From a virus: a stretch of 20,920 nucleotides of DNA. Shown here one piece after another: positions 1-14,855 of the stretch; the first letter of the stretch is position 1; the number at the start of each line of letters is the position of its first letter. The notes under the pieces are model-generated. The model searched no databases. It had not been told where the DNA came from and was given only the letters and a program-made list of their open reading frames with translations. The stretch covers positions 1 through 20,920 of the IMG/VR virus record IMGVR_UViG_3300032322_000303. One strand, written 5' to 3'. The translations under genes were made by a program, and so were the position numbers.

Positions 1-40
1 AATATATTTTATTTAATTAGGGAAAACACCTATGAATAGA

Positions 41-70
41 TTGCTAAACATGCTTAGATTGCTATACAAT
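41..70 (+). promoter_or_regulatory. Early promoter, copy 1 (sigma70 type, extended -10)
   Basis: A -35-like TTGCTA lies at 41-46, followed by a 16-bp spacer and an extended -10 TGC-TATACA (60-68). The block TTAGATTGCTATACAAT recurs at two other sites in the window (3672-3701 and 4722-4751), each just upstream of a gene. The first 20 bases of the window are AT-rich and could act as an UP element. It should drive the operon that starts at 118. Host sigma70 use is inferred from the consensus match. Confidence 0.8.
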
Positions 71-78
71 CACGACAT

Positions 79-103
79 GCCCTAGCGTTTTGCAAGGGGT
101 CTT
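79..103 (+). promoter_or_regulatory. Hairpin leader, copy 1
   Basis: Between the promoter and the Shine-Dalgarno lies a segment that can fold. CCC (80-82) pairs with GGG, an internal loop follows, then GC (85-86) pairs with GC (92-93) around a U-rich loop. It is followed by GTCTT and then the ribosome site AAGGG (106-110). The same layout recurs at 3711-3735 and 4762-4787. It could be a translational control hairpin, a stabiliser, or a weak attenuator, because the hairpin is followed by U residues. The stem is short, so the structure is suggestive only. Confidence 0.5.
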
Positions 104-117
104 AAAAGGGAAATCAA

Positions 118-339
118 ATGTCACAAACTTTCAAAGCAGATTGCTATTTTCAAGAAGAGCAATACAACCCCCGCATTCGCGCCACTGTTCCACCAGCTTG
201 GGTAATTGAGTTTGACTGCGCTTTGCCTAACACAAATGTGCCTCCTGTGTTTTTTGGTCACTCTCGTAAAGAAGCCATCCAAAACGCAATTGATTGTTTA
301 AAGTCTCGCGGCTTTACTGGTCGTTTAATTCTTAACTAA
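118..339 (+). CDS. Hypothetical early protein, 73 aa
   Basis: First gene of the first early cassette, 7 bases after a clear AAGGG ribosome site and directly downstream of promoter and leader copy 1. The C-terminal half (FFGHSRKEAIQNAIDCLK and on) looks like a short alpha/beta unit of a kind seen in small phage proteins. I see no catalytic motif, signal peptide or membrane segment. Being first after an early promoter suggests early expression, possibly host takeover, but no function can be assigned. Confidence 0.75.
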   Translation: MSQTFKADCYFQEEQYNPRIRATVPPAWVIEFDCALPNTNVPPVFFGHSRKEAIQNAIDCLKSRGFTGRLILN

Positions 340-350
340 TAGGAATAAAA

Positions 351-650
351 ATGGCAACTTTTCAAGAACGCAAACAAGACTTTTGGGAGTGGCATAAAGC
401 CAACCCAAAGGTCTGGGAATACTTCGAGAGGTTTTCTCTCGAGGTGGTCAAGACTGGTCGCAAGAAGGTCAGCCATTGGTTGATCATCAACCGCATCAGG
501 TGGGAGGTTTACCTTGAGACAACAGGTGAGGACTTCAAGATCAGCAACGACTACATAGCCTTCTATGCCCGCCTGTGGCGTGCTCGTCACCCAGAGCACA
601 AAGACCTATTCACCATTAAACGCATGATAGGGGAACCTAGTGAAAACTAA
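351..650 (+). CDS. Conserved phage protein of unknown function, 99 aa
   Basis: Starts 11 bases after the previous stop with a GGAATAAAA ribosome site. The protein is basic and aromatic-rich. It resembles, from memory, a widespread phage family with an N-terminal part ending in a NP-x-V-x-E-x-F motif (here NPKVWEYFERF, about residues 18-28), a central S-H-W-L-I-I-N-R-I-R-W segment, and a C-terminal Y-A-R-L-W...HPEH stretch. The function of that family is not known to me. It lies in the early operon and its end overlaps the next gene by 11 bases. Confidence 0.8.
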   Translation: MATFQERKQDFWEWHKANPKVWEYFERFSLEVVKTGRKKVSHWLIINRIRWEVYLETTGEDFKISNDYIAFYARLWRARHPEHKDLFTIKRMIGEPSEN

Positions 651-837
651 GCGCATCACGATGCCAGTCTCTGAGGAGATTGAGCACATCAGGGATCGCT
701 TGACTTTTGATACTGGAGTCAAGATGACCTACAACCAGACAATCAGTTTCCTAATCCATTTCTACATTACACGAACCTTGCCCTCTGTCACTAATTTTGA
801 ACAACCCAAAACACAATGGAGAACAGTAAAAAAATGA
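640..837 (+). CDS. Small protein, possible ribbon-helix-helix type, 65 aa
   Basis: Start is a GTG inside the previous gene, chosen because AGGGGA sits about 6 bases upstream. The in-frame ATG at 661 has no comparable site. Residues 2-9 (KTKRITMP) could form a beta strand, followed by two predicted helices (about 10-24 and 30-44). That layout matches ribbon-helix-helix DNA-binding proteins, but the match is by pattern only. The C-terminal 20 residues are polar. If it binds DNA, a role in regulating the early promoters would fit; this is inference. Confidence 0.65.
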   Translation: MKTKRITMPVSEEIEHIRDRLTFDTGVKMTYNQTISFLIHFYITRTLPSVTNFEQPKTQWRTVKK

Positions 838-1049
838 CTACTACAGCCATCGAAGACGCACTCAAGAAGTCTTACTCTGACGGGTTTCTCAGCGGCTTAA
901 ACGCAATGCCAAGAAACTTTACGCCACTAACTGACGAAGAGATTCAAGCCGCATTGGGCATTGACGCAAGTAGCTCTAACTGGAACTTGATCAAAGTTCT
1001 TGAATGGGGTAACAAAATCCAAACCGCTTTACTGGAGAAAAATAAATGA
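834..1049 (+). CDS. Hypothetical protein, 71 aa
   Basis: An upstream in-frame ATG exists at 816, but it has no ribosome site. The ATG at 834 forms an ATGA overlap with the preceding stop and has GGAG about 10 bases upstream, so I start here. The protein is mixed helical, with a TPLTDEEIQAALG segment in the middle that resembles phage proteins I cannot name. No enzyme motif is visible. It ends in another ATGA overlap with gene 1046, so translation is probably coupled. Confidence 0.7.
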   Translation: MTTTAIEDALKKSYSDGFLSGLNAMPRNFTPLTDEEIQAALGIDASSSNWNLIKVLEWGNKIQTALLEKNK

Positions 1050-1261
1050 CACAAGATGAAATTATTGCAATGGCAACAAAAGCTGGATTCAAATCATCTG
1101 TTTTTAATCATTCGACATGGATTAAAGAGTTTGAGAAATTTGCCAAGCTGGTAGCACAGCATGAGCGTGAGGCGTGTGCAAAGGTGTGTGATGACCTTTG
1201 GGAAGATGATGGCACTGCATATGACTGTGCTGAAGCCATCAGAACATTGGGGCAAGCATGA
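1046..1261 (+). CDS. Conserved phage EREACAKVC-type protein, 71 aa, first of a tandem pair
   Basis: A small helical protein with the pattern FAKLVAQHEREACAKVC and a C-terminal CAEAIRTLGQA. From memory this pattern is very common in phages of proteobacteria, but its function is unknown. The three cysteines (two in the ACAKVC block, one near the C-terminus) are conserved in the neighbour at 1258 and could be structural or metal-binding. It begins with an ATGA overlap and ends with one. The high similarity to the next gene shows a local duplication. Confidence 0.78.
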   Translation: MTQDEIIAMATKAGFKSSVFNHSTWIKEFEKFAKLVAQHEREACAKVCDDLWEDDGTAYDCAEAIRTLGQA

Positions 1262-1575
1262 CAAGAAATGAAATTGAACACATGTGGAAAGTAGCCAGTA
1301 ACAATCCAAACCACGATACAAATTGGCATGACCCAGTCGTTATAGCCTTTGCCAAACTAGTAGCACAGCACACGCTTTCCAACATTGACCCAAGCAAGTT
1401 TATGTCGTACCAAGAAGTGTTTGAAGCAGGGTGCTTAGCCGAGCGTGAGGCGTGTGCAAAGTTGTGTTTTGAAATGTGGGATAAGTGGATGGATGCTGAT
1501 CCGAGCGAGCGTCACAACTTGCCCCGCGATGCAGAGGATTGTGCTCACGCCATCCGAGCAAGGGGACAAGCATGA
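1258..1575 (+). CDS. Paralogue of gene 1046, 105 aa, with an insert
   Basis: Shares FAKLVAQH, EREACAK and C-terminal AIRARGQA with the protein at 1046. About 22 extra residues lie between FAKLVAQH and EREACAK, and there is a longer linker before the last cysteine. The coding DNA for EREACAK is identical over 21 bases in the two genes (1163-1183 and 1441-1461), so the duplication or a conversion event is recent. Function unknown. Translationally coupled by ATGA on both sides. Confidence 0.78.
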   Translation: MTRNEIEHMWKVASNNPNHDTNWHDPVVIAFAKLVAQHTLSNIDPSKFMSYQEVFEAGCLAEREACAKLCFEMWDKWMDADPSERHNLPRDAEDCAHAIRARGQA

Positions 1576-2201
1576 GCTACATCATTGCATCATTGCCACC
1601 CATGAAGTGTTTTGTAAAACGCGAGTTTTTATACAACGACCAAAAAGGGCATGGCGAGTTGGAGCCAGCAGTCTGGGTAAGTCTTAAAGCCCTGCGTGGT
1701 CAAGTGTTCAGGATTGAGTCCCTGTTGCCTGCATATGGCGCTCTGTACGACAAGCTACCCATCCATGCTTATGTGTGGCATGAAGATGCTGGCAACCTTC
1801 CAATCGACACCCTTCAGTTGTGGGACTGCATGGGCTACCGCTTTACAATCGTAGAAAAGATTGGCTTGCGTAACTTAGGCGTGAAGTTCTTAGGCAAAGA
1901 CAAGGCGTGGCACTTTGGTCGCTACTTGTTTACTGTGGACTTTTGCGCAGATGGCATGGAAGTAGACACAGGCTTTACAGAGCAAGCTGAAGAGCACAAG
2001 AGCTTTAACTTTATTGCGCTCGACAATGGTCAGTTTGCATGCCAGCCAAACAACAGGTGCTTGTGGTACGACCAGAGCTTGATTCCTTCAGAGACAAAGT
2101 TTCCTGACTTCCAAGCCGCACGCAGATTGTGGACAGTAGATGGCACACGCAAGTGGTCAGCAGGAGATGACTGGTTTTACGATATTCAGGAGAGAACATG
2201 A
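1572..2201 (+). CDS. Conserved phage protein of unknown function, 209 aa
   Basis: An open frame extends to 1539, but the ATG at 1572 forms an ATGA overlap with the previous gene and gives the N-terminus MSYIIASLPPMKCFVKREF, so I use it. The sequence (GHGELEPAVWVSLKALRGQ, YGALYDKLPIHAYVW, LQLWDCMGYRFTI, CQPNNRCLWYDQSL) matches a phage family I recognise from marine and freshwater viral contigs. In those relatives too the function is unknown. The protein is full length, soluble and rich in aromatic residues. I see no nucleotide-binding or nuclease motif. Confidence 0.85.
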   Translation: MSYIIASLPPMKCFVKREFLYNDQKGHGELEPAVWVSLKALRGQVFRIESLLPAYGALYDKLPIHAYVWHEDAGNLPIDTLQLWDCMGYRFTIVEKIGLRNLGVKFLGKDKAWHFGRYLFTVDFCADGMEVDTGFTEQAEEHKSFNFIALDNGQFACQPNNRCLWYDQSLIPSETKFPDFQAARRLWTVDGTRKWSAGDDWFYDIQERT

Positions 2202-2353
2202 AAGTCAGAACTAATCGCCACCGCACTTTGGCAATGATGGCACGCAAGAAAAAATACGCATGGATTGTTGCGCCTTATGTCAAACAGGCATTCATAAACT
2301 ATGAGCGCAACCAAAGGATCAAAGCACTTGTAGACAAGGCGTTTCCAGAATGA
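2198..2353 (+). CDS. Small basic protein, 51 aa
   Basis: A short frame with ATGA overlaps on both sides (2198/2201 and 2350/2353), which is strong support that it is translated. AGGAGAGA lies just upstream. The product is very basic: MKVRTNRHRTLAMMARKKK at the N-terminus, then a hydrophobic WIVAPYVKQAF segment and a charged helix. It may bind nucleic acid or a protein partner. No family is recognised. Confidence 0.65.
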   Translation: MKVRTNRHRTLAMMARKKKYAWIVAPYVKQAFINYERNQRIKALVDKAFPE

Positions 2354-2592
2354 GCGATCTATTTGGTTACGAAGAGTTTGACTGGCGTAAGGAGTGGCAG
2401 GACATGCCTGAGTTTTTTCAAGAAGACCTGACACCCTTTCGCGTGCTCAATATCCGATTTAGGAATGAAGAGGATGTGCAAGAGTTTGCGAAGCTGGTGG
2501 AGCAAGTCATCACGCCAAAACAAAAGGCGTTATGGTTCCCGCACGCTGAGTTCCGCAGGGCATCGCACTTGAGGTGGGTAGATGAATCCTAA
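2350..2592 (+). CDS. Small conserved partner of the glycosyltransferase, 80 aa
   Basis: A compact protein starting MSDLFGYEEFDWRKEW with a central RFRNEEDVQEFAKLVEQ and a W-F-P motif near the C-terminus. From memory this small family sits next to TAGT-type glycosyltransferases in many phages, and the 11-base overlap with the gene at 2582 supports a functional pair. No catalytic motif is seen, so a structural or accessory role in base modification is an inference. Confidence 0.75.
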   Translation: MSDLFGYEEFDWRKEWQDMPEFFQEDLTPFRVLNIRFRNEEDVQEFAKLVEQVITPKQKALWFPHAEFRRASHLRWVDES

Positions 2593-3451
2593 GTACCCCA
2601 TCTACATCGTGTCTAAAGGGCGCTGGAAGACGCGCCTGACGAGCAAGGCACTCGACCGTATCAATGTGCCCTACTACATCGTGGTAGAGGCCCATGAGCG
2701 CGAGGAGTACGCCGCTGTCATTGATCCTGCAAAGGTGCTGGTGTTGCCTGAAAAATATTTGAGGGACTATGACACTTGTGATGATGAAGGCGAGGCGCGA
2801 GGAAAAGGCCCCGGGGCCGCTCGCAACTTCTGCTGGGATCACAGCATCCTCTTCGGTCACGCCCGCCACTGGGTCATGGACGACAACATCGCAAGCTTCA
2901 ACAGGCTCAACCGCAACCTCATGGTTAAGGTGACCTCTGGCACTATTTTCAAGGCCGCTGAGGACTTCGTAGACCGCTACACCAATGTCGCCATCTCTGG
3001 CTTTAACTACGACTTCTTTGCCAAGGCCAAAGAGCCTCTACCTGCCTTCGTAATGAACACCCGCATCTACTCCTGCCTGCTCATTGATAACAGCCTCCAA
3101 ATGCGCTGGAGAGGCCGCTACAACGAAGATACTGACCTGTCCATCAGAGCGCTCAAAGCTGGCCTGTGCACCATCCAGTTCAACGCATACCTACAGGAGA
3201 AGGCCACCACCCAGACCATGGCAGGTGGCAACACTGACGAGTTCTACGCTAAGGAGGGAACCCTGCCTAAGTCTCAGATGATCGAGCGCCTGCACCCTGA
3301 TGTGGCTGAGGTCGTCTGGAGGTTTAACCGCTGGCATCACCATGTGGACTACACAGTGTTCAAACACAACGCCCTCATCAAACGTGAAGGCTTAGTTATC
3401 CCTAAAGGCATCAACACATATGGCATGAAACTAATCGAGATTACCAAATGA
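2582..3451 (+). CDS. TET-associated-type glycosyltransferase (TAGT-like), 289 aa
   Basis: Predicted to transfer a sugar to a modified base in DNA, such as hydroxymethylpyrimidine. The N-terminus YPIYIVSKGRWKTRLT is a hallmark of the TAGT family described in computational surveys of phage base modification. V-M-D-D-N (D100, D101, N102) fits the metal-binding DxD-like site of a GT-A fold. Y-N-E-D-T-D-L (180-186) fits the late acidic active-site block. Length is normal. The upstream gene overlaps it and the downstream gene is coupled by ATGA. No TET/JBP oxygenase or nucleotide hydroxymethylase is in this window, so the acceptor base is unknown. Other GT-A sugar transferases are possible but less likely. 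Confidence 0.72.
   Translation: MNPKYPIYIVSKGRWKTRLTSKALDRINVPYYIVVEAHEREEYAAVIDPAKVLVLPEKYLRDYDTCDDEGEARGKGPGAARNFCWDHSILFGHARHWVMDDNIASFNRLNRNLMVKVTSGTIFKAAEDFVDRYTNVAISGFNYDFFAKAKEPLPAFVMNTRIYSCLLIDNSLQMRWRGRYNEDTDLSIRALKAGLCTIQFNAYLQEKATTQTMAGGNTDEFYAKEGTLPKSQMIERLHPDVAEVVWRFNRWHHHVDYTVFKHNALIKREGLVIPKGINTYGMKLIEITK
2807..2818. repeat. CCCCGGGG palindrome inside the glycosyltransferase gene
   Basis: One of six perfect CCCCGGGG octamers in the window. Here it extends to the 12-base palindrome GGCCCCGGGGCC, encoding Gly-Pro-Gly-Ala. See the finding on this motif. Confidence 0.7.
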
Positions 3452-3663
3452 AAATTGCACAAACCCCAACCAATAACTACTCTGTAGATGTCGAGCAGTG
3501 GCAAGACCAGCACGCTGACTTGATCAACGATTTAGAAGCCTACAACGGTAGCAACCAGTTCATTCTGAACATGTATCACGAGCTAACTTACTGGGGGACT
3601 CTCAGTGATAACCAAGTCAAAAAACTGCGAGTTGCATTAAAGCAACATAAGGGAAAGTCCTAA
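3448..3663 (+). CDS. Hypothetical protein, 71 aa
   Basis: Last gene of the first cassette, coupled to the glycosyltransferase by ATGA. The sequence has an acidic, N/Q-rich N-terminal half and a helical end (LSDNQVKKLRVALKQHK). That end could be a small helix-turn-helix-like or protein-binding unit, but I cannot assign a family. The stop is followed directly by promoter copy 2. Confidence 0.7.
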   Translation: MKIAQTPTNNYSVDVEQWQDQHADLINDLEAYNGSNQFILNMYHELTYWGTLSDNQVKKLRVALKQHKGKS

Positions 3664-3671
3664 TAAAAAAG

Positions 3672-3701
3672 TTGTTGCTCGTGTTTAGTTTGCTATACAA
3701 T
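3672..3701 (+). promoter_or_regulatory. Early promoter, copy 2
   Basis: TTGTTG (3672-3677), a 16-bp spacer and an extended -10 TGC-TATACA (3691-3699). The spacer carries the conserved TGTTTAG seen in the other copies. It should drive gene 3752. Confidence 0.78.
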
Positions 3702-3710
3702 GCACCCATG

Positions 3711-3735
3711 CCCCAGCGATTTTGCATAGGGTCTT
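3711..3735 (+). promoter_or_regulatory. Hairpin leader, copy 2
   Basis: CCC (3711-3713) can pair with GGG (3729-3731) and GC (3716-3717) with GC (3724-3725), followed by GTCTTTT. The ribosome site AAAAGGGAAA comes next. An alternative ATGC/GCAT pairing is also possible. The layout matches the leaders at 79 and 4762. Confidence 0.5.
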
Positions 3736-3751
3736 TTAAAAGGGAAACATC

Positions 3752-4372
3752 ATGAAAGCAACTCAAATCCGTGGTACTTGCCAATGCTGTGGTCGTCAGC
3801 AAGCTGTCGTCAATGGCAAGATGTCCAAGCATGGCTACACAGTCAAGATGGGCTGGTTCTCAGGTGTATGCACAGGTCAGCATTATGTTCCTATGCAAGT
3901 GAGCCGCGAAGTTGCAGACAAGATCGTTGCTGAAATCCGCGCAGAAATTCCTCAACTGTTGGCTAAGGCTGACCAAGTCAAAGCAGGCGAGATCAAGCCA
4001 GTGTCCATCATGCGCTCAGTGAGCTTCAAAGAAAAAGTCGAAGTTGCATTTGCTGACGCTACATCAATGGAACAGCGCCACGCTCTGCACGCCATGGAGT
4101 GGAACCTGCGCTTGCGTGCTAAGGCTGGTGAAGACTTCTCCAAAATGCTCGAGGAAACTGCTAACAAAGTCCATGGTACAGCTCTGACAGAAGTCTCCAA
4201 AAAAGAGCCAGCAGAGTTCATCATGCCTCGCGACCAAAAGACAGGCCATGGCATGACATATACATGCACATCAGTCGAAGGCGCTCGGGTGTACTACAAA
4301 GTCCAGAAGGGTGAGACATTCTTCAAGGGCTGGATGGGTTCCCAAGCATGGAGAAAGATGGCTTCGGTTTAA
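3752..4372 (+). CDS. Zinc-ribbon phage protein of unknown function, 206 aa
   Basis: First gene of the second cassette, with its own promoter and leader and a strong AAAAGGGAAA site. The N-terminal 45 residues hold C10-x2-C13, H27, C40 and H44, which fits a small zinc-binding domain. The pattern CxxCGR...SKHGYTV...GWFSGVC is familiar from other phage and plasmid proteins of unknown role. The middle is helical and charged (about 50-150) and the C-terminal 40 residues look beta-rich. It could bind nucleic acid or a host protein; the individual promoter suggests a need for high or early expression. Confidence 0.8.
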   Translation: MKATQIRGTCQCCGRQQAVVNGKMSKHGYTVKMGWFSGVCTGQHYVPMQVSREVADKIVAEIRAEIPQLLAKADQVKAGEIKPVSIMRSVSFKEKVEVAFADATSMEQRHALHAMEWNLRLRAKAGEDFSKMLEETANKVHGTALTEVSKKEPAEFIMPRDQKTGHGMTYTCTSVEGARVYYKVQKGETFFKGWMGSQAWRKMASV

Positions 4373-4386
4373 TAAAAGGGGAAATC

Positions 4387-4704
4387 ATGAAAAAAATTCA
4401 ATATCAATCGTACTGGTTTGACACGGATCACTCAATTGGGGACAGGGGGCAGTTCCCCGGTGGCGAGCGCCGCAGAGTCCAAGTCGATGGCAAAACCGTT
4501 GGCTTCTTGCGTGTCGCCAAAAATGGCTGGGCACAGAGCGACAAGAAGCGCGGAACGCCATCTCAAATCTGGAAGTTTGAGCCAGTCAGCAGTTCCGACT
4601 TGGGCGTTCAGATCGCACGGAAAATGCCCTCCTATACAGAATATTTTGCGGAGGCTAAAAAAATTATTTCATCAGTTGTTACCGAAGTTAGGGTAAGCAC
4701 CTAG
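4387..4704 (+). CDS. Hypothetical protein, 105 aa
   Basis: The frame is open from 4348, but the ATG at 4387 follows the strong site AAAAGGGGAAA and lies after the previous stop, so the shorter start is chosen. The product is basic. Its N-terminal half looks beta-rich (YWFDTDHS, RRRVQVDGKTVGFLRV), and the C-terminal 25 residues could form a helix. No motif or family is recognised. It shares the second cassette with the zinc-ribbon gene. Confidence 0.72.
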   Translation: MKKIQYQSYWFDTDHSIGDRGQFPGGERRRVQVDGKTVGFLRVAKNGWAQSDKKRGTPSQIWKFEPVSSSDLGVQIARKMPSYTEYFAEAKKIISSVVTEVRVST

Positions 4705-4721
4705 AAAATAATTGTAAAAAC

Positions 4722-4751
4722 CTGTTGTAACTGTTTAGATTGCTATACAAT
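4722..4751 (+). promoter_or_regulatory. Early promoter, copy 3
   Basis: CTGTTG (4722-4727), a 16-bp spacer with TGTTTAG, and an extended -10 TGC-TATACA (4741-4749). Sequence and spacing match the copies at 41 and 3672. It should drive the third cassette beginning at 4801. Confidence 0.78.
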
Positions 4752-4761
4752 CACTCCCATG

Positions 4762-4787
4762 CCGTAGCATTTTGCAAGCGGTCTTTT
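4762..4787 (+). promoter_or_regulatory. Hairpin leader, copy 3
   Basis: CCG (4762-4764) can pair with CGG (4779-4781) where the other copies have CCC and GGG, a compensatory change. GC (4767-4768) pairs with GC (4774-4775). The hairpin is followed by TCTTTTT, which gives this copy the look of a weak intrinsic terminator or attenuator ahead of the ribosome site AAGGAAA. Confidence 0.55.
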
Positions 4788-4800
4788 TAAGGAAACTAAG

Positions 4801-5073
4801 ATGGCAAACGCCAAAATCAAAAAACAAAACTTCCGCGCAGGCTTGCTGGTTGTCGCTACTGACAATCCAGAAACACAGGTCTACACCGTCGAGAGCATCG
4901 ATGGCAACCATGTCACCTACACATGGTTTGAGGGCGAGAACCAATGCATCTCTGGCATTGACTACTCCATGCTCATGACTCCTACCATCGAGCAAATTGA
5001 GTACAGCATCAACGCTAACGGTCGTCTGGCAAACGCCCTTGATGTGGCTGATGTGAAATTCATCATCGGCTAA
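4801..5073 (+). CDS. Hypothetical protein, 90 aa
   Basis: First gene of the third cassette. After a basic start (MANAKIKKQNFRAG) the sequence looks like a small beta barrel or SH3-like fold: LLVVATD, VYTVESIDGNHVTYTWF. A helical tail follows. The fold guess is from pattern only. The gene ends 8 bases before a very stable UUCG hairpin, which may set the level of downstream expression. Confidence 0.72.
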   Translation: MANAKIKKQNFRAGLLVVATDNPETQVYTVESIDGNHVTYTWFEGENQCISGIDYSMLMTPTIEQIEYSINANGRLANALDVADVKFIIG

Positions 5074-5080
5074 ACCAACA

Positions 5081-5096
5081 GGGGGCTTCGGCCCCC
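5081..5096 (+). terminator. GGGGGC-TTCG-GCCCCC hairpin without a T-tract
   Basis: A perfect 6-bp GC stem closed by a UUCG tetraloop, placed between genes 4801 and 5110. No U-run follows, so it is a poor intrinsic terminator. It may instead protect upstream mRNA ends, mark a processing site or give partial termination. Confidence 0.5.
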
Positions 5097-5109
5097 ACTA
5101 GGACACATC

Positions 5110-5265
5110 ATGAACAAGTATTTCACCAACAAAGAATTCCGCTCTGGCTTTGATGCCGCCGCTTTTTGCGAGGCATGCGACAAGTCTCAATCTAAAGACT
5201 GGGTTGCTGGCTGGAACTACTATCAAGACAAGATGACTGCAAGCGAATCAGCTTGCTGGTTTTAA
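5110..5265 (+). CDS. Small protein, 51 aa
   Basis: A short frame with the ribosome site AGGAC, followed 9 bases later by the next gene, which carries the same 15-base initiation region. The product has three cysteines (C20, C23, C49), a C-x-x-C pair and several aromatic residues near the end (DWVAGWNYYQDKM, ACWF). The FRSGFDAAAFCEACD stretch is likely helical. Family not recognised; a metal-binding role is only a possibility. Confidence 0.6.
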   Translation: MNKYFTNKEFRSGFDAAAFCEACDKSQSKDWVAGWNYYQDKMTASESACWF

Positions 5266-5621: not shown

Positions 5622-5812
5622 ACGCCGACAAGATCATCAGCCAAGTCGCTCTGCAAGCCTCCAAGACCTATCAAGACGCAGATGCGCGTGACCGCTTAGC
5701 CTACCAAGTAGGAATGCTTCAAGGCACGATCCGTGACCTTTGCTACCAGTTAGAAATTAACCAAGAACAAGTCAAAGTCCTCAACCTGCAAATTCTGAAA
5801 GCACAAAAATGA
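5618..5812 (+). CDS. Small coiled-coil protein, 64 aa
   Basis: A wholly helical protein. The last 30 residues (GTIRDLCYQLEINQEQVKVL and on) show leucine or hydrophobic positions spaced as in a coiled coil. It sits directly upstream of the ERF gene with an ATGA overlap, so it may be an oligomeric accessory to the recombination module. That role is inferred from position only. Confidence 0.68.
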   Translation: MNADKIISQVALQASKTYQDADARDRLAYQVGMLQGTIRDLCYQLEINQEQVKVLNLQILKAQK

Positions 5813-6381
5813 AAAACATTGCTACCGCGCTCTGCAAAGCACAGAAGGCTTTTGGCCCTGCCCTCAAAAGCTCTGTCAACCCACACTTTCGCTCCAAGTA
5901 TGCTGACCTTGCCGCTTGCGTTGAAGCAGTCATGGACAGCCTTAACAACAATGGCATCTCCTTAATCCAGCAAACCCATGACCACCCTGATGGCGTGATC
6001 GTAGAGACAATGTTCCTGCACGAGTCAGGCGAGTCATTAAGCTGTGGTCGCCTGTACTTTCCTGCCGCCAAGAACGATCCACAGGGCTATATGAGCGCCC
6101 TGACCTATGCCCGCAGGGGTTCGCTCATGGCGGCTTGTGGCATCGCTCCAGAAGACGACGATGGCAATGCCGCATCCCGTAAGACAGAGTCTAAGGTTTC
6201 TGAAAGCGTAATGGCTGACCACCTTGCCGCCATCAGCGCCAGCGCCAACTCAGAAGAGTTGCAGAAAGCCTACTCACAAGCCTACGAAGCCTGCAAGGGT
6301 GACCAAGGCTGGCAAGCCAAAGTGATTGCCGCAAAGAAGGCCCGTGTTGAAAAAGCTAAAAAAGAAAGTTTGAAATCATGA
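5809..6381 (+). CDS. ERF-family single-strand annealing protein, 190 aa
   Basis: Recombinase of the ERF superfamily, which anneals complementary single strands during phage recombination and end repair. Visible signatures are NPHFRSKYADLAACVEAV (about residues 24-41), the NGISLIQQ strand, ETMFLHESGESL, and the SALTYARRGSLMAACGI block followed by the acidic EDDDGNAA. The usual GSALTYARRY is here MSALTYARRG, a small deviation. Length fits the family. The C-terminal third is a charged helical tail. An exonuclease and a protein with an SSB-like tail follow in the same operon, the normal setting for this family. Confidence 0.9.
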   Translation: MKNIATALCKAQKAFGPALKSSVNPHFRSKYADLAACVEAVMDSLNNNGISLIQQTHDHPDGVIVETMFLHESGESLSCGRLYFPAAKNDPQGYMSALTYARRGSLMAACGIAPEDDDGNAASRKTESKVSESVMADHLAAISASANSEELQKAYSQAYEACKGDQGWQAKVIAAKKARVEKAKKESLKS

Positions 6382-6545
6382 AAAAAGAAAAACCTGTCAC
6401 CCTCGACCAAATGACCTTGCGTGACTTCTATGCGCTCTTTGCCATGGTCGGTGACCTAGCAAGCGGCACAAAAGCAGACCAAAAGAACATTGCCGCCAAA
6501 GCATATGACCTAGCAAACGAAATGATGAAAGCCCGAAATGATTGA
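6378..6545 (+). CDS. Small protein between annealase and exonuclease, 55 aa
   Basis: ATGA overlap with the ERF gene and an 8-base overlap with the exonuclease gene make translation likely. The product MKKEKPVTLDQMTLRDFYAL and on is two helices with a hydrophobic face (FYALFAMVGDLA, NIAAKAYDLANEMM). Family unknown. The position suggests an accessory of the recombination pair. Confidence 0.65.
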   Translation: MKKEKPVTLDQMTLRDFYALFAMVGDLASGTKADQKNIAAKAYDLANEMMKARND

Positions 6546-7164
6546 AATCGAACAACGCTCAAACGAATGGTTTGCCCTGCGCTTAGGCAAGGTGACCGCC
6601 TCTCGTGTCGCTGACCTGATGGCTAAAACCAAAACAGGCTACTCAGCAACTCGCGAGAACTACATGGCCCAGCTCGTGGTGGAGCGCATCTCCAACTCAC
6701 AGGCTGAGTCCTTTACCAACGCCGCCATGCAGTGGGGTACGGATCAGGAACCCTATGCCCGTGCAGAATACGAAGCCACACAAGGCGTTATGGTCGAGGA
6801 GTGTGGGTTTGTATCCCACCCAACAATTGAGATGGCTGGAGCCTCTCCTGATGGCTTGGTGGGGGATGAAGGACTCATAGAGATCAAGTGCCCTAATACA
6901 GCCACGATGATCGATGTTTTGCTCACAGGTACTGTGGCATCCAAATACTACACCCAGATGCAATTCCAGATGGCCTGCACGGGTCGCCAGTGGTGTGACT
7001 ATGTGGTGTTCGATCCACGCATGCCAGCCAAGGCGCAAATGTTTATAAAAAGAGTGGCAAGAGATGAGGCGTTCATTGCAGAGATGGAAGCTGAAGTCAC
7101 CAAGTTCCTCGGCGAAGTCGCTGAAAAAGTAGCAAAAATCCAATCAATCATTGAAAGCAAATAA
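6538..7164 (+). CDS. YqaJ-family viral exonuclease, 208 aa
   Basis: A lambda-exonuclease-like PD-(D/E)XK nuclease expected to resect double-stranded DNA ends and supply single strands to the ERF protein. Motifs in order: QRSNEWFALRLGKVTASR (6-23), MQWGTDQEPYARAEYE (64-79) with the acidic E71, SPDGL with D105, I-E-I-K-C-P with E115 and K117 as the catalytic E-x-K, and the Y-x-x-Q-M-Q-F-Q block (137-144). All key residues are present and the length is typical. It overlaps the genes on both sides. Confidence 0.93.
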   Translation: MIEIEQRSNEWFALRLGKVTASRVADLMAKTKTGYSATRENYMAQLVVERISNSQAESFTNAAMQWGTDQEPYARAEYEATQGVMVEECGFVSHPTIEMAGASPDGLVGDEGLIEIKCPNTATMIDVLLTGTVASKYYTQMQFQMACTGRQWCDYVVFDPRMPAKAQMFIKRVARDEAFIAEMEAEVTKFLGEVAEKVAKIQSIIESK

Positions 7165-12545: not shown

Positions 12546-14855
12546 TTAACCGCCAAGGGCGTTTAAGCCTTTGTATGTGTACAAACCTGTTGCCAGTTGT
12601 TGCAACGCTGATGGCGAATATGTTGCACCTGTTGATGTACCTTGATTAGTTGTGATTTGTGGTGTGATTGGAGCCATGCCACGAATCTGTGTGTTCAAGA
12701 AATCAAGCTGTTGCTTTGGATAGTTCTGCTGATTAATGTACTGCTGTTCTGCCGCAGTCAATTGACGTTGCATCTGTCCTTGCTGAGATGCGCCAGCCGC
12801 TTCCAAAGCCGCCGTATCTGCATAACCCATACCTTGGGCTTGCTGAGACAATCCAGCTACTTGTTGCAACGCAGACATCTGGCGCTGATAGTCTTGAGCT
12901 TTAGCAGACTGAGCCGCTTGAGCCGCAGTAAGACCAAACTGTTGTTGAGCCTGACCCGCACCTGTCTGCATCTGACCAAGGTTAGCCATCTGGGACATCT
13001 GTTGAGCAGTAAGCTGGCCTTGTGTCTGACCAAGGTTTGTCAGGTTCTGCTGTTGTTGGCTTGACAACTGACCAGCAGTTTGACCTAAATTAGTCAAAGC
13101 AGAAGCCTGTTGTCCTGTTAACTGACCAGCGGTCTGACCAAGATTAGCTAGTGCGTTAGCCTGTTGACCCGCAAGTTGACCTTGAGTCTGACCCACGTTG
13201 GCTAATGCCGCCGCTTGCTGACTTGTCAACTGACCTTGAGCCTGACCTAAGTTAGCCAGCGAGGAAGCCTGCTGACCCATTAACTGACCTTGTGTCTGAC
13301 CAAGATTAGTCAAGGAAGAAGCCTGTTGGCCTGTCAATTGACCAGCGGTTTGTCCAAGGTTAGCAAGCGTAGTAGCTTTTTGACCAGCAAGTTGACCTTG
13401 CGTTTGTCCAAGATTAGCTAAAGCAGAAGCTTGTTGACCTGCAAGCTGTCCTTGGCTTTGACCAATATTAGCTAATGCGGCGGCTTGCTGACCCGTCAAT
13501 TGACCTTGGGTCTGCGCAAGGTTTCCATACTGAGCACCACCCTGAAGCACGCGAGAAAGGTCTGCACCAGAAATGCTACCAACTGTACCAGCCAACTGAG
13601 CTTGGCGTGCAAGGTCAGCTTGAGAAGCACCAAGAGCCTGTCCAAAACCTTGGTTAGCCAACTGAGCTTGTTGGTTTAACACAGCTTCTTGAGTATCGCG
13701 CAGAGCACGGCTTGCAAACTCACCCATGCGTGAACCACCAAATTGACCTGCTCTGATAAAAGCGTCCGACACGTTAGGTAGCAAGTTCTCGCTAAGATTA
13801 CGTCCCGCCTGCTTAGCGATAGCGTCCATAACGCCACCTTGATACTGCGACATGTACTGATTGATACCACCAGCACCAGATTGAGCCGCCGCTGAGAGGT
13901 AAGGGTTAGCCGCATTCAAAGCACGATCAGAAAGCGCTTGTGCGGTCGTCTGACCAGCCTGACCCATAAAAGGTTGAGCCGCGCTGTAAATGTCACCAGC
14001 CGCTTGACTAGCTTGACTAAAGTAAGGTTGCGCCGCACCAGTGATATTGCCAGCAGAAGTACCTGCTTGATTTAGATATGGTTGAGCCGCCGCAGTAATA
14101 TCACCCGCAGAAGCACCAGCCTGATTCATGTAAGGTAAAGCCGCACCTAGAATGTTTCCAGCAGATGAACCTGCTTGCGTCAACGAAGGTTGCGCCGCAT
14201 TCATGATGTTGCCAGCGGATAAATTAGCTTGATTGAAATACGGTTGAGCTGAGCCAACAATACTGCCTGCGGCTTGACCAGACTGTGATAGATAAGGTTG
14301 AGCCGCGCTGGTGATGTTACCCGCAGATGTGCCAGCTTGATTCATGTAGGGTTGAGCCGCACCCATAATGTTGCCAGCGGACATGCCTGCCTGCGTCAAC
14401 GAAGGTTGTGCAGAGCCAACGGAATCAATACCCATTGCTCTTGAGAGCGCAGGTTGACTTGCCCCCACAATGTCCATCTGACCTGCTCTGTTGAAATATG
14501 CTTGACCAGCGCCTAAGTTTTGACCTGCCAACTCTGGACTCAAATATTGACCTTGCGCGGCTTGCAAATCACCAGCAGTGCCTTTATTGGCAAAGCCTTT
14601 CATGCCTGTAGAGGCAAAGTTCATGTCGCCTTTATATGCGCCTTGTTGCTCTTGAACTTGCTTGTAGGCTTGTTGCTGTAGAGGTGACAACTCAGCCACA
14701 GTTGGCAAACTGTAGGGCTGATAAGGCGTGTTAGCTACGTTTGTAGCTAACTGAATTTGATTGTAAATTGCATCCTGCATCCACTTTGGAGTCTCAGTGG
14801 AAGAGGTGGTGTATGAAGTCGCCAGTTGTGGCGAACCTTGAAAAAGACTTCCCAT
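12546..14855 (-). CDS. Twin-array 18-residue repeat protein, 769 aa
   Basis: A Gln/Ala/Gly-rich late protein with two arrays. Residues 147-308 are nine units of an AAQPYLNQAGTSAGNIT-type repeat. Residues 447-626 are ten units of a GQTQGQLAGQQASALANL-type repeat. Both have a period of exactly 18 residues, which is five turns of an alpha helix. A non-repeat linker of 138 residues, with NLLPNVSDAFIRAGQFGGSRM, lies between. The N-terminal 70 residues and the C-terminus (YINQQNYPKQQLDFLNTQIRG, in part) look like docking regions seen in other phage internal proteins. An elongated helical virion or ejection protein is likely; a tape-measure-like role is an alternative. Confidence 0.7.
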   Translation of the reverse strand: MGSLFQGSPQLATSYTTSSTETPKWMQDAIYNQIQLATNVANTPYQPYSLPTVAELSPLQQQAYKQVQEQQGAYKGDMNFASTGMKGFANKGTAGDLQAAQGQYLSPELAGQNLGAGQAYFNRAGQMDIVGASQPALSRAMGIDSVGSAQPSLTQAGMSAGNIMGAAQPYMNQAGTSAGNITSAAQPYLSQSGQAAGSIVGSAQPYFNQANLSAGNIMNAAQPSLTQAGSSAGNILGAALPYMNQAGASAGDITAAAQPYLNQAGTSAGNITGAAQPYFSQASQAAGDIYSAAQPFMGQAGQTTAQALSDRALNAANPYLSAAAQSGAGGINQYMSQYQGGVMDAIAKQAGRNLSENLLPNVSDAFIRAGQFGGSRMGEFASRALRDTQEAVLNQQAQLANQGFGQALGASQADLARQAQLAGTVGSISGADLSRVLQGGAQYGNLAQTQGQLTGQQAAALANIGQSQGQLAGQQASALANLGQTQGQLAGQKATTLANLGQTAGQLTGQQASSLTNLGQTQGQLMGQQASSLANLGQAQGQLTSQQAAALANVGQTQGQLAGQQANALANLGQTAGQLTGQQASALTNLGQTAGQLSSQQQQNLTNLGQTQGQLTAQQMSQMANLGQMQTGAGQAQQQFGLTAAQAAQSAKAQDYQRQMSALQQVAGLSQQAQGMGYADTAALEAAGASQQGQMQRQLTAAEQQYINQQNYPKQQLDFLNTQIRGMAPITPQITTNQGTSTGATYSPSALQQLATGLYTYKGLNALGG
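12978..13517 (-). repeat. Repeat array 2: ten 54-bp units
   Basis: Encodes ten consecutive 18-residue units of the type GQTQGQLAGQQASALANL. Most conserved positions are G1, Q2, G5, Q6, L7, Q10, Q11 and N17. Third codon positions vary between units, so it is an old or selected array and not a fresh expansion. Confidence 0.9.
13932..14417 (-). repeat. Repeat array 1: nine 54-bp units
   Basis: Encodes nine 18-residue units of the type GAAQPYLNQAGTSAGNIT, preceded by a decayed 16-residue unit at 14418-14465. The unit differs from array 2 but has the same length, and Q, A and G dominate both. Confidence 0.88.

Follow-up and report, generated by a model that had tools for sequence, protein, structure and literature searches.

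Repeated promoter–leader blocks in early phage DNA: a probable Cro-controlled, apparently CI-less early regulon with a 5′-hairpin leader

P22 Cro and N15 Cro are small, all-α helix-turn-helix (HTH) proteins, and dyad operators laid over early promoters are known from these systems and from the lambda OL/PL region, where the early operons diverge and the recombination genes lie in the operon that runs away from cro. In other phages one repressor serves several dispersed sites, as with the phiC31 CIRs, the L5 stoperators and the P1 operators, and the T7 gene 10 leader provides a comparison for an mRNA with a hairpin at its head, a U-rich stretch behind it and then a ribosome site. Hall, Lefevre and Cordes (2005, as cited in PMC4488713) formulated recognition rules for Cro and OR in which helix residues correlate with operator half-sites. 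The PeSLs of T4-like phages (Arbiol 2010; Comeau 2014), in the account given in PMC4503421, place a promoter and a stem-loop ahead of unrelated early genes that are shuffled, and 5′-terminal stem-loops serve as mRNA stabilisers in ompA and papA (reviewed in PMC3997798). Here we describe three blocks of early DNA, at 41–117, 3672–3751 and 4722–4800 of a 20,920-nucleotide (nt) stretch (positions 1 to 20,920 of IMG/VR record IMGVR_UViG_3300032322_000303; hereafter the window), which together with their relatives probably represent a Cro-controlled, apparently CI-less early regulon whose mRNAs carry a 5′-hairpin leader.

The locus resembles each of these systems and departs from each. As in P22, N15 and lambda, dyad operators over early promoters are paired with a small all-α HTH protein of the Cro type, and the Erf-like and exonuclease genes of the window are the content of a PL operon. 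Unlike its counterparts there, the protein has only about 50 amino acids (aa), neither an integrase nor an S24-type CI was found in the 49 records searched, the operators sit at one to four scattered promoters rather than in one switch region, and the repressor gene is divergent to the operon under control. The set of Hall and colleagues differs from ours, which comes from a single phage group, holds 120 distinct operator–repressor pairs and shows a near-binary Arg/Gln switch in otherwise similar promoters. Like the PeSLs, the blocks consist of an early promoter and then a stem-loop ahead of unrelated genes, with shuffling; unlike them, the stem-loop lies at about +3 and does not look terminator-like, the promoter contains a phage-specific operator, and the phages are not T4-like. 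The predicted start sites would put the hairpin at the very 5′ end, before a U-rich stretch and a ribosome site, as in ompA, papA and T7 gene 10. In contrast to the phiC31, L5 and P1 sites, each site here is fused to a common RNA leader, and specificity differs among close relatives.

An earlier note on this DNA had reported the three blocks as units of promoter and leader, and they proved to be real: TTAGNTTGCTATACAAT occurs exactly three times in the window (54, 3685 and 4735) with no further match at up to three mismatches (shuffle mean 0.22; 0 of 100 shuffles reached three), and a covariance model built from 54 leaders scores 45.9–52 bits at the blocks, the next best position reaching 11.5. 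The three copies can be aligned across about 100 columns, a chance origin is unlikely, and the shared unit begins further upstream than had been described, at an element of the form TTAGGGWAANNNCCTA. Their parts are as follows.

1–16, − strand: left edge, beyond which the divergent Cro-type repressor gene is expected (start about 28 nt past base 1)
17–32, + strand: block 1 upstream element TTAGGGAAAACACCTA, seen in the sequence, its TAGGG beginning at −59 from the expected +1
33–50, + strand: block 1 distal operator TGAATAGATTGCTAAACA, over the −35; exact match to TGNNTAGNTTGCTAWACA
51–68, + strand: block 1 proximal operator TGCTTAGATTGCTATACA, overlapping the −10; exact match
65–70, + strand: block 1 −10 hexamer TACAAT; expected +1 at A77 from the −10-to-leader spacing
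77–117, + strand: block 1 leader RNA with 5′ hairpin (stem within 80–99), GGTCTT and ribosome site; 45.9 bits
3648–3663, + strand: block 2 upstream element TAAGGGAAAGTCCTAA, seen in the sequence, a TAAGGG variant at about −60
3682–3699, + strand: block 2 operator TGTTTAGTTTGCTATACA; exact match
3708–3751, + strand: block 2 leader RNA, hairpin within 3710–3732, expected +1 at A3708; 52 bits and fold
4688–4703, + strand: block 3 upstream element TTAGGGTAAGCACCTA, seen in the sequence, at about −70
4732–4749, + strand: block 3 operator TGTTTAGATTGCTATACA; exact match
4759–4800, + strand: block 3 leader RNA, hairpin within 4761–4782, expected start about 4758/4759; 50.2 bits and fold

Relatives were gathered by pattern scans of viral contigs, which returned at least several hundred loci from metagenomic phage contigs and, after removal of duplicates, at least 298 cassette sites in at least 227 freshwater phage contigs, 63 of which hold more than one site. 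The 50 records searched whole, mostly 31–37 kb long, carry one to four copies each. The leader element was not found in 50,697 annotated phages, where the window DNA also had no match. A host origin of the leader was considered and rejected, as one of 84,980 GTDB species genomes matched one hairpin form and that contig is phage-like: it belongs to a Comamonadaceae metagenome-assembled genome and bears NinB-like and terminase genes. A search of 200 genomes of the same host family again returned that one contig only. A structural protein of the window shares 32–54% identity with records of the Caulobacter phage RW type and with a metagenomic phage, and matches LUZ24-like podophage records more weakly.

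The promoter half of each block had been read as a −35, a conserved TGYTTAG spacer and an extended −10. The −35 is weak, only 41–46 being flagged as promoter-like. TGYTTAG is indeed conserved, though not as a mere spacer, and the extended −10 GCTATACA is present with a second use: the two form the left and right arms of one 18-base-pair (bp) dyad, TGnnTAG-nTTG-CTAwACA, which we take as the operator. Exact copies of the dyad occur in the window only at 33–50, 51–68, 3682–3699 and 4732–4749, which gives block 1 two abutting operators and blocks 2 and 3 one each. The best dyad over the 298 sites falls at the −10/spacer, with 5.38 of 8 positions paired; other offsets yield 3.1–4.0. When left arms were swapped among sites only 4.2 positions paired (maximum 4.36 in 200 trials), showing that the arms covary.

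The operators are also specific to the genome in which they lie. Operator identity is 0.72 within genomes and 0.44 between them (label-permutation maximum 0.48), while the same pairs show no within-genome effect for far upstream DNA (0.34 and 0.34), the leader (0.46 and 0.48) or the gene start (0.26 and 0.28). Types vary among phages (CACAnnTGTG, ATAAG-N4-CTTAT, TTAAG-N4-CTTAA, TGTAAAG-N4-CTTACA, TGTTTAG-N4-CTATACA), and the copies in one genome agree; CACAATTGTG and ATAAG-CTTAT are examples of classes other than the window's, and the CACAnnTGTG class sits mostly upstream of the −10. The earlier note had offered two explanations of the shared block, copying of promoter and leader as one unit or selection on both DNA and RNA. 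Copying within a genome is not supported by the leader, which is no more alike within genomes than between them, and a likeness confined to the operator speaks against recent copying of whole blocks and points to a genome-specific reader of the DNA. Selection on both levels is supported by the genome-specific operator together with a hairpin that contains a covarying base pair.

A candidate for this reader lies beside the first cassette. A Pfam HTH_3 search of the 49 records gave weak, divergent matches directly upstream of it, and an open reading frame (ORF) of about 50 aa, divergent within 220 nt, was found in 153 distinct promoter–repressor combinations. P22_Cro (PF14549) matched seven of eight tested proteins above its curated cut-off; the 49-aa protein of L007, a stand-in for that of the window, scored 37.3 bits against a cut-off of 30.2, and P22 Cro is the nearest solved sequence (E 0.002). 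An AlphaFold model of the repressor (pLDDT 95.5) has as its best fold matches N15 Cro with operator DNA (6on0, TMq 0.85) and P22 Cro (1rzs, TMq 0.79), both at probability 1.00, the Foldseek E-values for so short a protein being only about 0.03. L007 matches window positions 1–76, all the bases that precede the leader, without a difference, and carries a Cro ORF that begins 104 nt upstream of +1; the cro start of the window's phage is therefore expected 28 nt outside the window. Family match, fold and cognate dyad operators at adjacent early promoters thus place the protein with the P22/N15-type Cro proteins, operator binding and repression being predicted. The opposing CI-type repressor and integrase of a lambdoid lysis–lysogeny switch were not found: integrase PF00589 and S24-type repressor PF00717 each gave 0 of 49 records with working positive controls, and since many records are fragments this absence is not final. 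In L282 an operon of methyltransferase, RusA/NinB-like and terminase genes, named by eye from translations, begins with the cro-type gene, and the cassettes drive the opposite operon. The Rfam int-alpA RNA (RF02996) lies directly 3′ of the cro-type gene on the same strand at L046:3068–3136 (+), above gathering, with matches below gathering at L013:2139–2212 (−) and L043:2133–2207 (−); it could represent the 3′ terminus of the repressor message or a small RNA derived from it.

Repressor and operator change together. Over the 120 distinct pairs, recognition-helix distance tracks operator distance with a Mantel r of 0.63, and controlling for the rest of the protein leaves a partial r of 0.44 (permutation maximum 0.08), or 0.42 without the CACA class. 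Where helix position 2 is Arg, half-site positions 7 and 8 are T (0.87) and G (0.83); where it is Gln, they are A (0.96) and T (0.80). Arg thus goes with an outer TGT and Gln with an outer TAT, the position 7 agreement being 87 of 88 (60 Arg/T, 27 Gln/A, one exception). The pattern is a correlation, and it is what direct reading of G by Arg and of A by Gln would give.

The RNA half of the block contains, as had been claimed, a hairpin, then GGUCUU, then a ribosome site, and the block 1 leader folds as ...((((.((.....)).)))). The −10 ends 6 nt before the leader A in 340 of 384 sites and, in the window, 6 nt before it except in block 3 (7 nt), which makes the A of the conserved AUGCC the expected first RNA base. 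The hairpin begins at about +3, 2–3 nt past the expected start, and the start codon lies mostly 36–44 nt from the predicted 5′ end. Stems are 3–8 bp long, with energies from −1.5 to −12.4 kcal/mol. An earlier covariation count on the pattern-selected alignment was weak, with one pair altered on both sides, since the stem letters were set by the patterns, and it was redone on free letters: the first stem pair left free by the search patterns is paired in 95 of 97 distinct leaders (CG 80, GC 9, UG 4, AU 2), against 82 in the best of 1000 shuffles, the next pairs being no better than shuffles. The third stem pair of block 3 is reversed to G-C (CCG...CGG, against CCC...GGG), a compensatory change. 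When cassettes were gathered by promoter only, all had the hairpin and the U-rich tract, a few with AGCCC in place of AUGCC.

No Rfam family was found at the leaders at gathering score, and the int-alpA RNA was rejected as an identity for them, its match falling 3′ of the cro-like gene and away from the leader. A leaderless AUG-Pro-stop mini-ORF (AUGCCCUAG/UGA) was likewise rejected: many members have CAG or CGA, and some have no AUG. The half of the leader made of hairpin, GGGUCUUUUUAGGAG and ribosome site also stands between genes, directly after GGGGCTTCGGCCCC and without a promoter, at G014:C1:32527–32568, G020:C1:10059–10100 and G035:C1:3829–3870; this 3′ half may serve some separate purpose. 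At L311:2560–3180 (MW202544) a divergent Cro-like ORF, a TTAGGGAAAGTACCTAG element, a TGTTAAG-type operator and an MTDFTF-family gene are joined by a different leader without AUGCC, a layout that offers a natural comparison for the role of the leader.

The TTAGGGWAANNNCCTA element, which resembles an inverted repeat, stands upstream of each block at about −59, −60 and −70, with a one-base variant in block 2. TAGGGWAAN2-4CCTA occurs in 127 of the 298 cassettes, nearly all at −49/50, −59/60/61 or −69 to −72, positions separated by roughly a helical turn; it is seen with every operator class and at first and later cassettes alike. A search of 60 host-family genomes gave eight matches, as did the reversed control, and a host regulon motif was rejected for that family; an activator site is the natural guess.

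The data presented above have led us to propose a model in which the three blocks are Cro-controlled early promoters of a leftward-type operon, comparable to that of lambda PL. Each would be a σ70-like promoter whose spacer and −10 form one 18-bp operator for the phage's own repressor of about 50 aa, the gene for which would be transcribed divergently from block 1. Early in infection all blocks would be transcribed strongly; as Cro built up, it would cover the −10 and shut the promoters. The transcript would start with the A of the leader AUG, or with a base adjoining it, and consist of 2–3 unpaired nt, the hairpin, GGUCUUUU and a Shine–Dalgarno site. By analogy with known leaders, the hairpin probably stabilises the mRNA or aids translation, most likely as a 5′-terminal stabiliser joined to a U-rich, ribosome-friendly leader. 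Being common to phages with different operators, the leader also offers a common point for the exchange of early genes and promoters. A more ambitious version is put forward tentatively, as somewhat short of an even chance: a Cro-only regulon (no CI, no integrase) for accessory early genes in widespread freshwater phages, with repressor and operators co-diverging by a residue–base switch, the newly described 5′-hairpin leader as a universal adapter by which promoters and early genes become interchangeable and, possibly, an extra activator acting through the helically phased TTAGGGWAANNNCCTA element.

Swapping itself is evident from the genes behind the cassettes, which fall into 91 families of median length 73 aa, the larger ones standing behind several operator classes (the same family behind four or five) and both hairpin forms. 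Among 118 pairs with the same gene and different promoters about a third share the whole leader, and most of 153 pairs with the same promoter and different genes share the leader up to the start codon; L032 and L167 have identical leaders and gene starts with different operators, and L032 and L041 have a common promoter and different genes. Junctions lie at both edges of the leader. Promoter and leader-plus-gene thus recombine between genomes, and because pairs share the leader on either side it lies where two exchangeable modules meet. One could go further and regard the blocks as mobile promoter/stem-loop cassettes: a single unit that has been copied within genomes and passed between them, with a main role as recombination joints in the manner of PeSLs. 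Both sets of pairs, their junctions at the leader and the 91 families would be expected of such cassettes, yet copies within a genome are no more alike than copies between genomes except in the operator, that operator suits the resident repressor, and the stem covaries; shuffling accounts for the placement of genes and not for the conservation of the elements, and we regard this account as unlikely.

Two other proposals concern the leader. It might be an attenuator in which the hairpin and UCUUUU act as a weak intrinsic terminator shortly after the start, relieved by a phage or host antiterminator. In its favour, nearly all members carry, at constant spacing from the start, a hairpin with a U-rich tract behind it. 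Yet stems shrink to 3 bp (CCC-UUU-GGG), a size at which they would terminate poorly, energies rise to −1.5 kcal/mol, the tract is only UCUUUU, and a terminator scan, whose overall matches are at shuffle level, flags none of the three window leaders; an attenuator seems rather improbable. If the leader were instead bound by a regulatory protein or small RNA that coordinated early translation, this would explain why one RNA frame (AUGCC, stem-loop, GGUCUUUU, ribosome site) persists across phages with unrelated operators, and why hairpin and GGGUCUUUUUAGGAG recur between genes without a promoter in G014, G020 and G035. Against it, loop sequence and stem length vary so widely that little besides the flanks is left for a specific reader, and no candidate protein was found, which leaves it doubtful, about as much so as the mobile cassettes. 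The dyad, lastly, could be a by-product of a strong extended −10 promoter with no repressor at all, the right arm being in part the −10 itself. Since the left arm varies with the right, the dyad differs among phages in step with the recognition helix, and the CACAnnTGTG class lies mostly upstream of the −10, we consider this extremely improbable.

Cro control remains the reading we prefer as probable, and several points weigh against it. Operators, hairpin, swaps and the fit between operator and repressor are computed directly, and binding, start sites, repression, timing and mRNA stabilisation are inferred. The link from the hairpin to mRNA stability is an indirect one, and some early cassettes, such as that of Manatee Spring phage MW202544, do without the leader. 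Because the contigs are related to each other, permutation figures and counts do not represent independent events; the Arg/Gln pattern goes back to about four switches on a tree made without the helix, which is few. Most leaders were collected with patterns that fix AUGCC and GGUCUUU, and the conservation of those letters is partly built in. The repressor gene itself lies outside the window.

The remaining features of the window follow.

118–339, + strand: first gene, 73 aa, of a family that also stands behind other operator classes in related phages
3752–4372, + strand: gene behind block 2, 206 aa, PHROG 17208, a function-unknown family
4801–5073, + strand: gene behind block 3, 90 aa
5809–7164, + strand: downstream early recombination genes by PHROG matches, an Erf-like annealing protein (5809–6381) and an exonuclease (6538–7164)

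An intercistronic GGGGGCTTCGGCCCCC hairpin at 5079–5110, just ahead of the ribosome site that serves the gene at 5110, resembles hairpins of the relatives. Between blocks 1 and 2, 2582–3451 (+) encodes a homologue of PHROG 842 (beta-glucosyl-HMC-alpha-glucosyltransferase), and DNA modification is possible. The adjacent early genes 1046–1261 and 1258–1575 have common repeats (FAKLVAQH, EREACAK and the C-terminal region) and are probably a tandem duplication. On the minus strand, a 769-aa protein (12546–14855) contains long arrays of 18-residue (54-nt) repeats at about 12972–13551 and 13951–14411.

Most representatives of the genes behind cassettes have no Pfam match, the exceptions being LPD29 (L258) and DUF932 (L083), and the presence of these two among short genes suggests that the position may hold anti-defence or host-takeover genes. 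The operator and hairpin leader together provide a sequence tag for 91 families of mostly unknown phage early genes, where anti-defence functions may well be found, and the leader, conserved in phages and absent from Rfam, is a new sequence family of RNA. Some 120 natural repressor–operator pairs set in comparable promoters make the way in which Cro-type helices read DNA directly testable, and swaps of one residue and one base pair would test the co-change of specificity between a repressor and its scattered operators. Hundreds of related viruses that keep this design and vary the repressor–site pair make up a large natural set on the reading of DNA by proteins.

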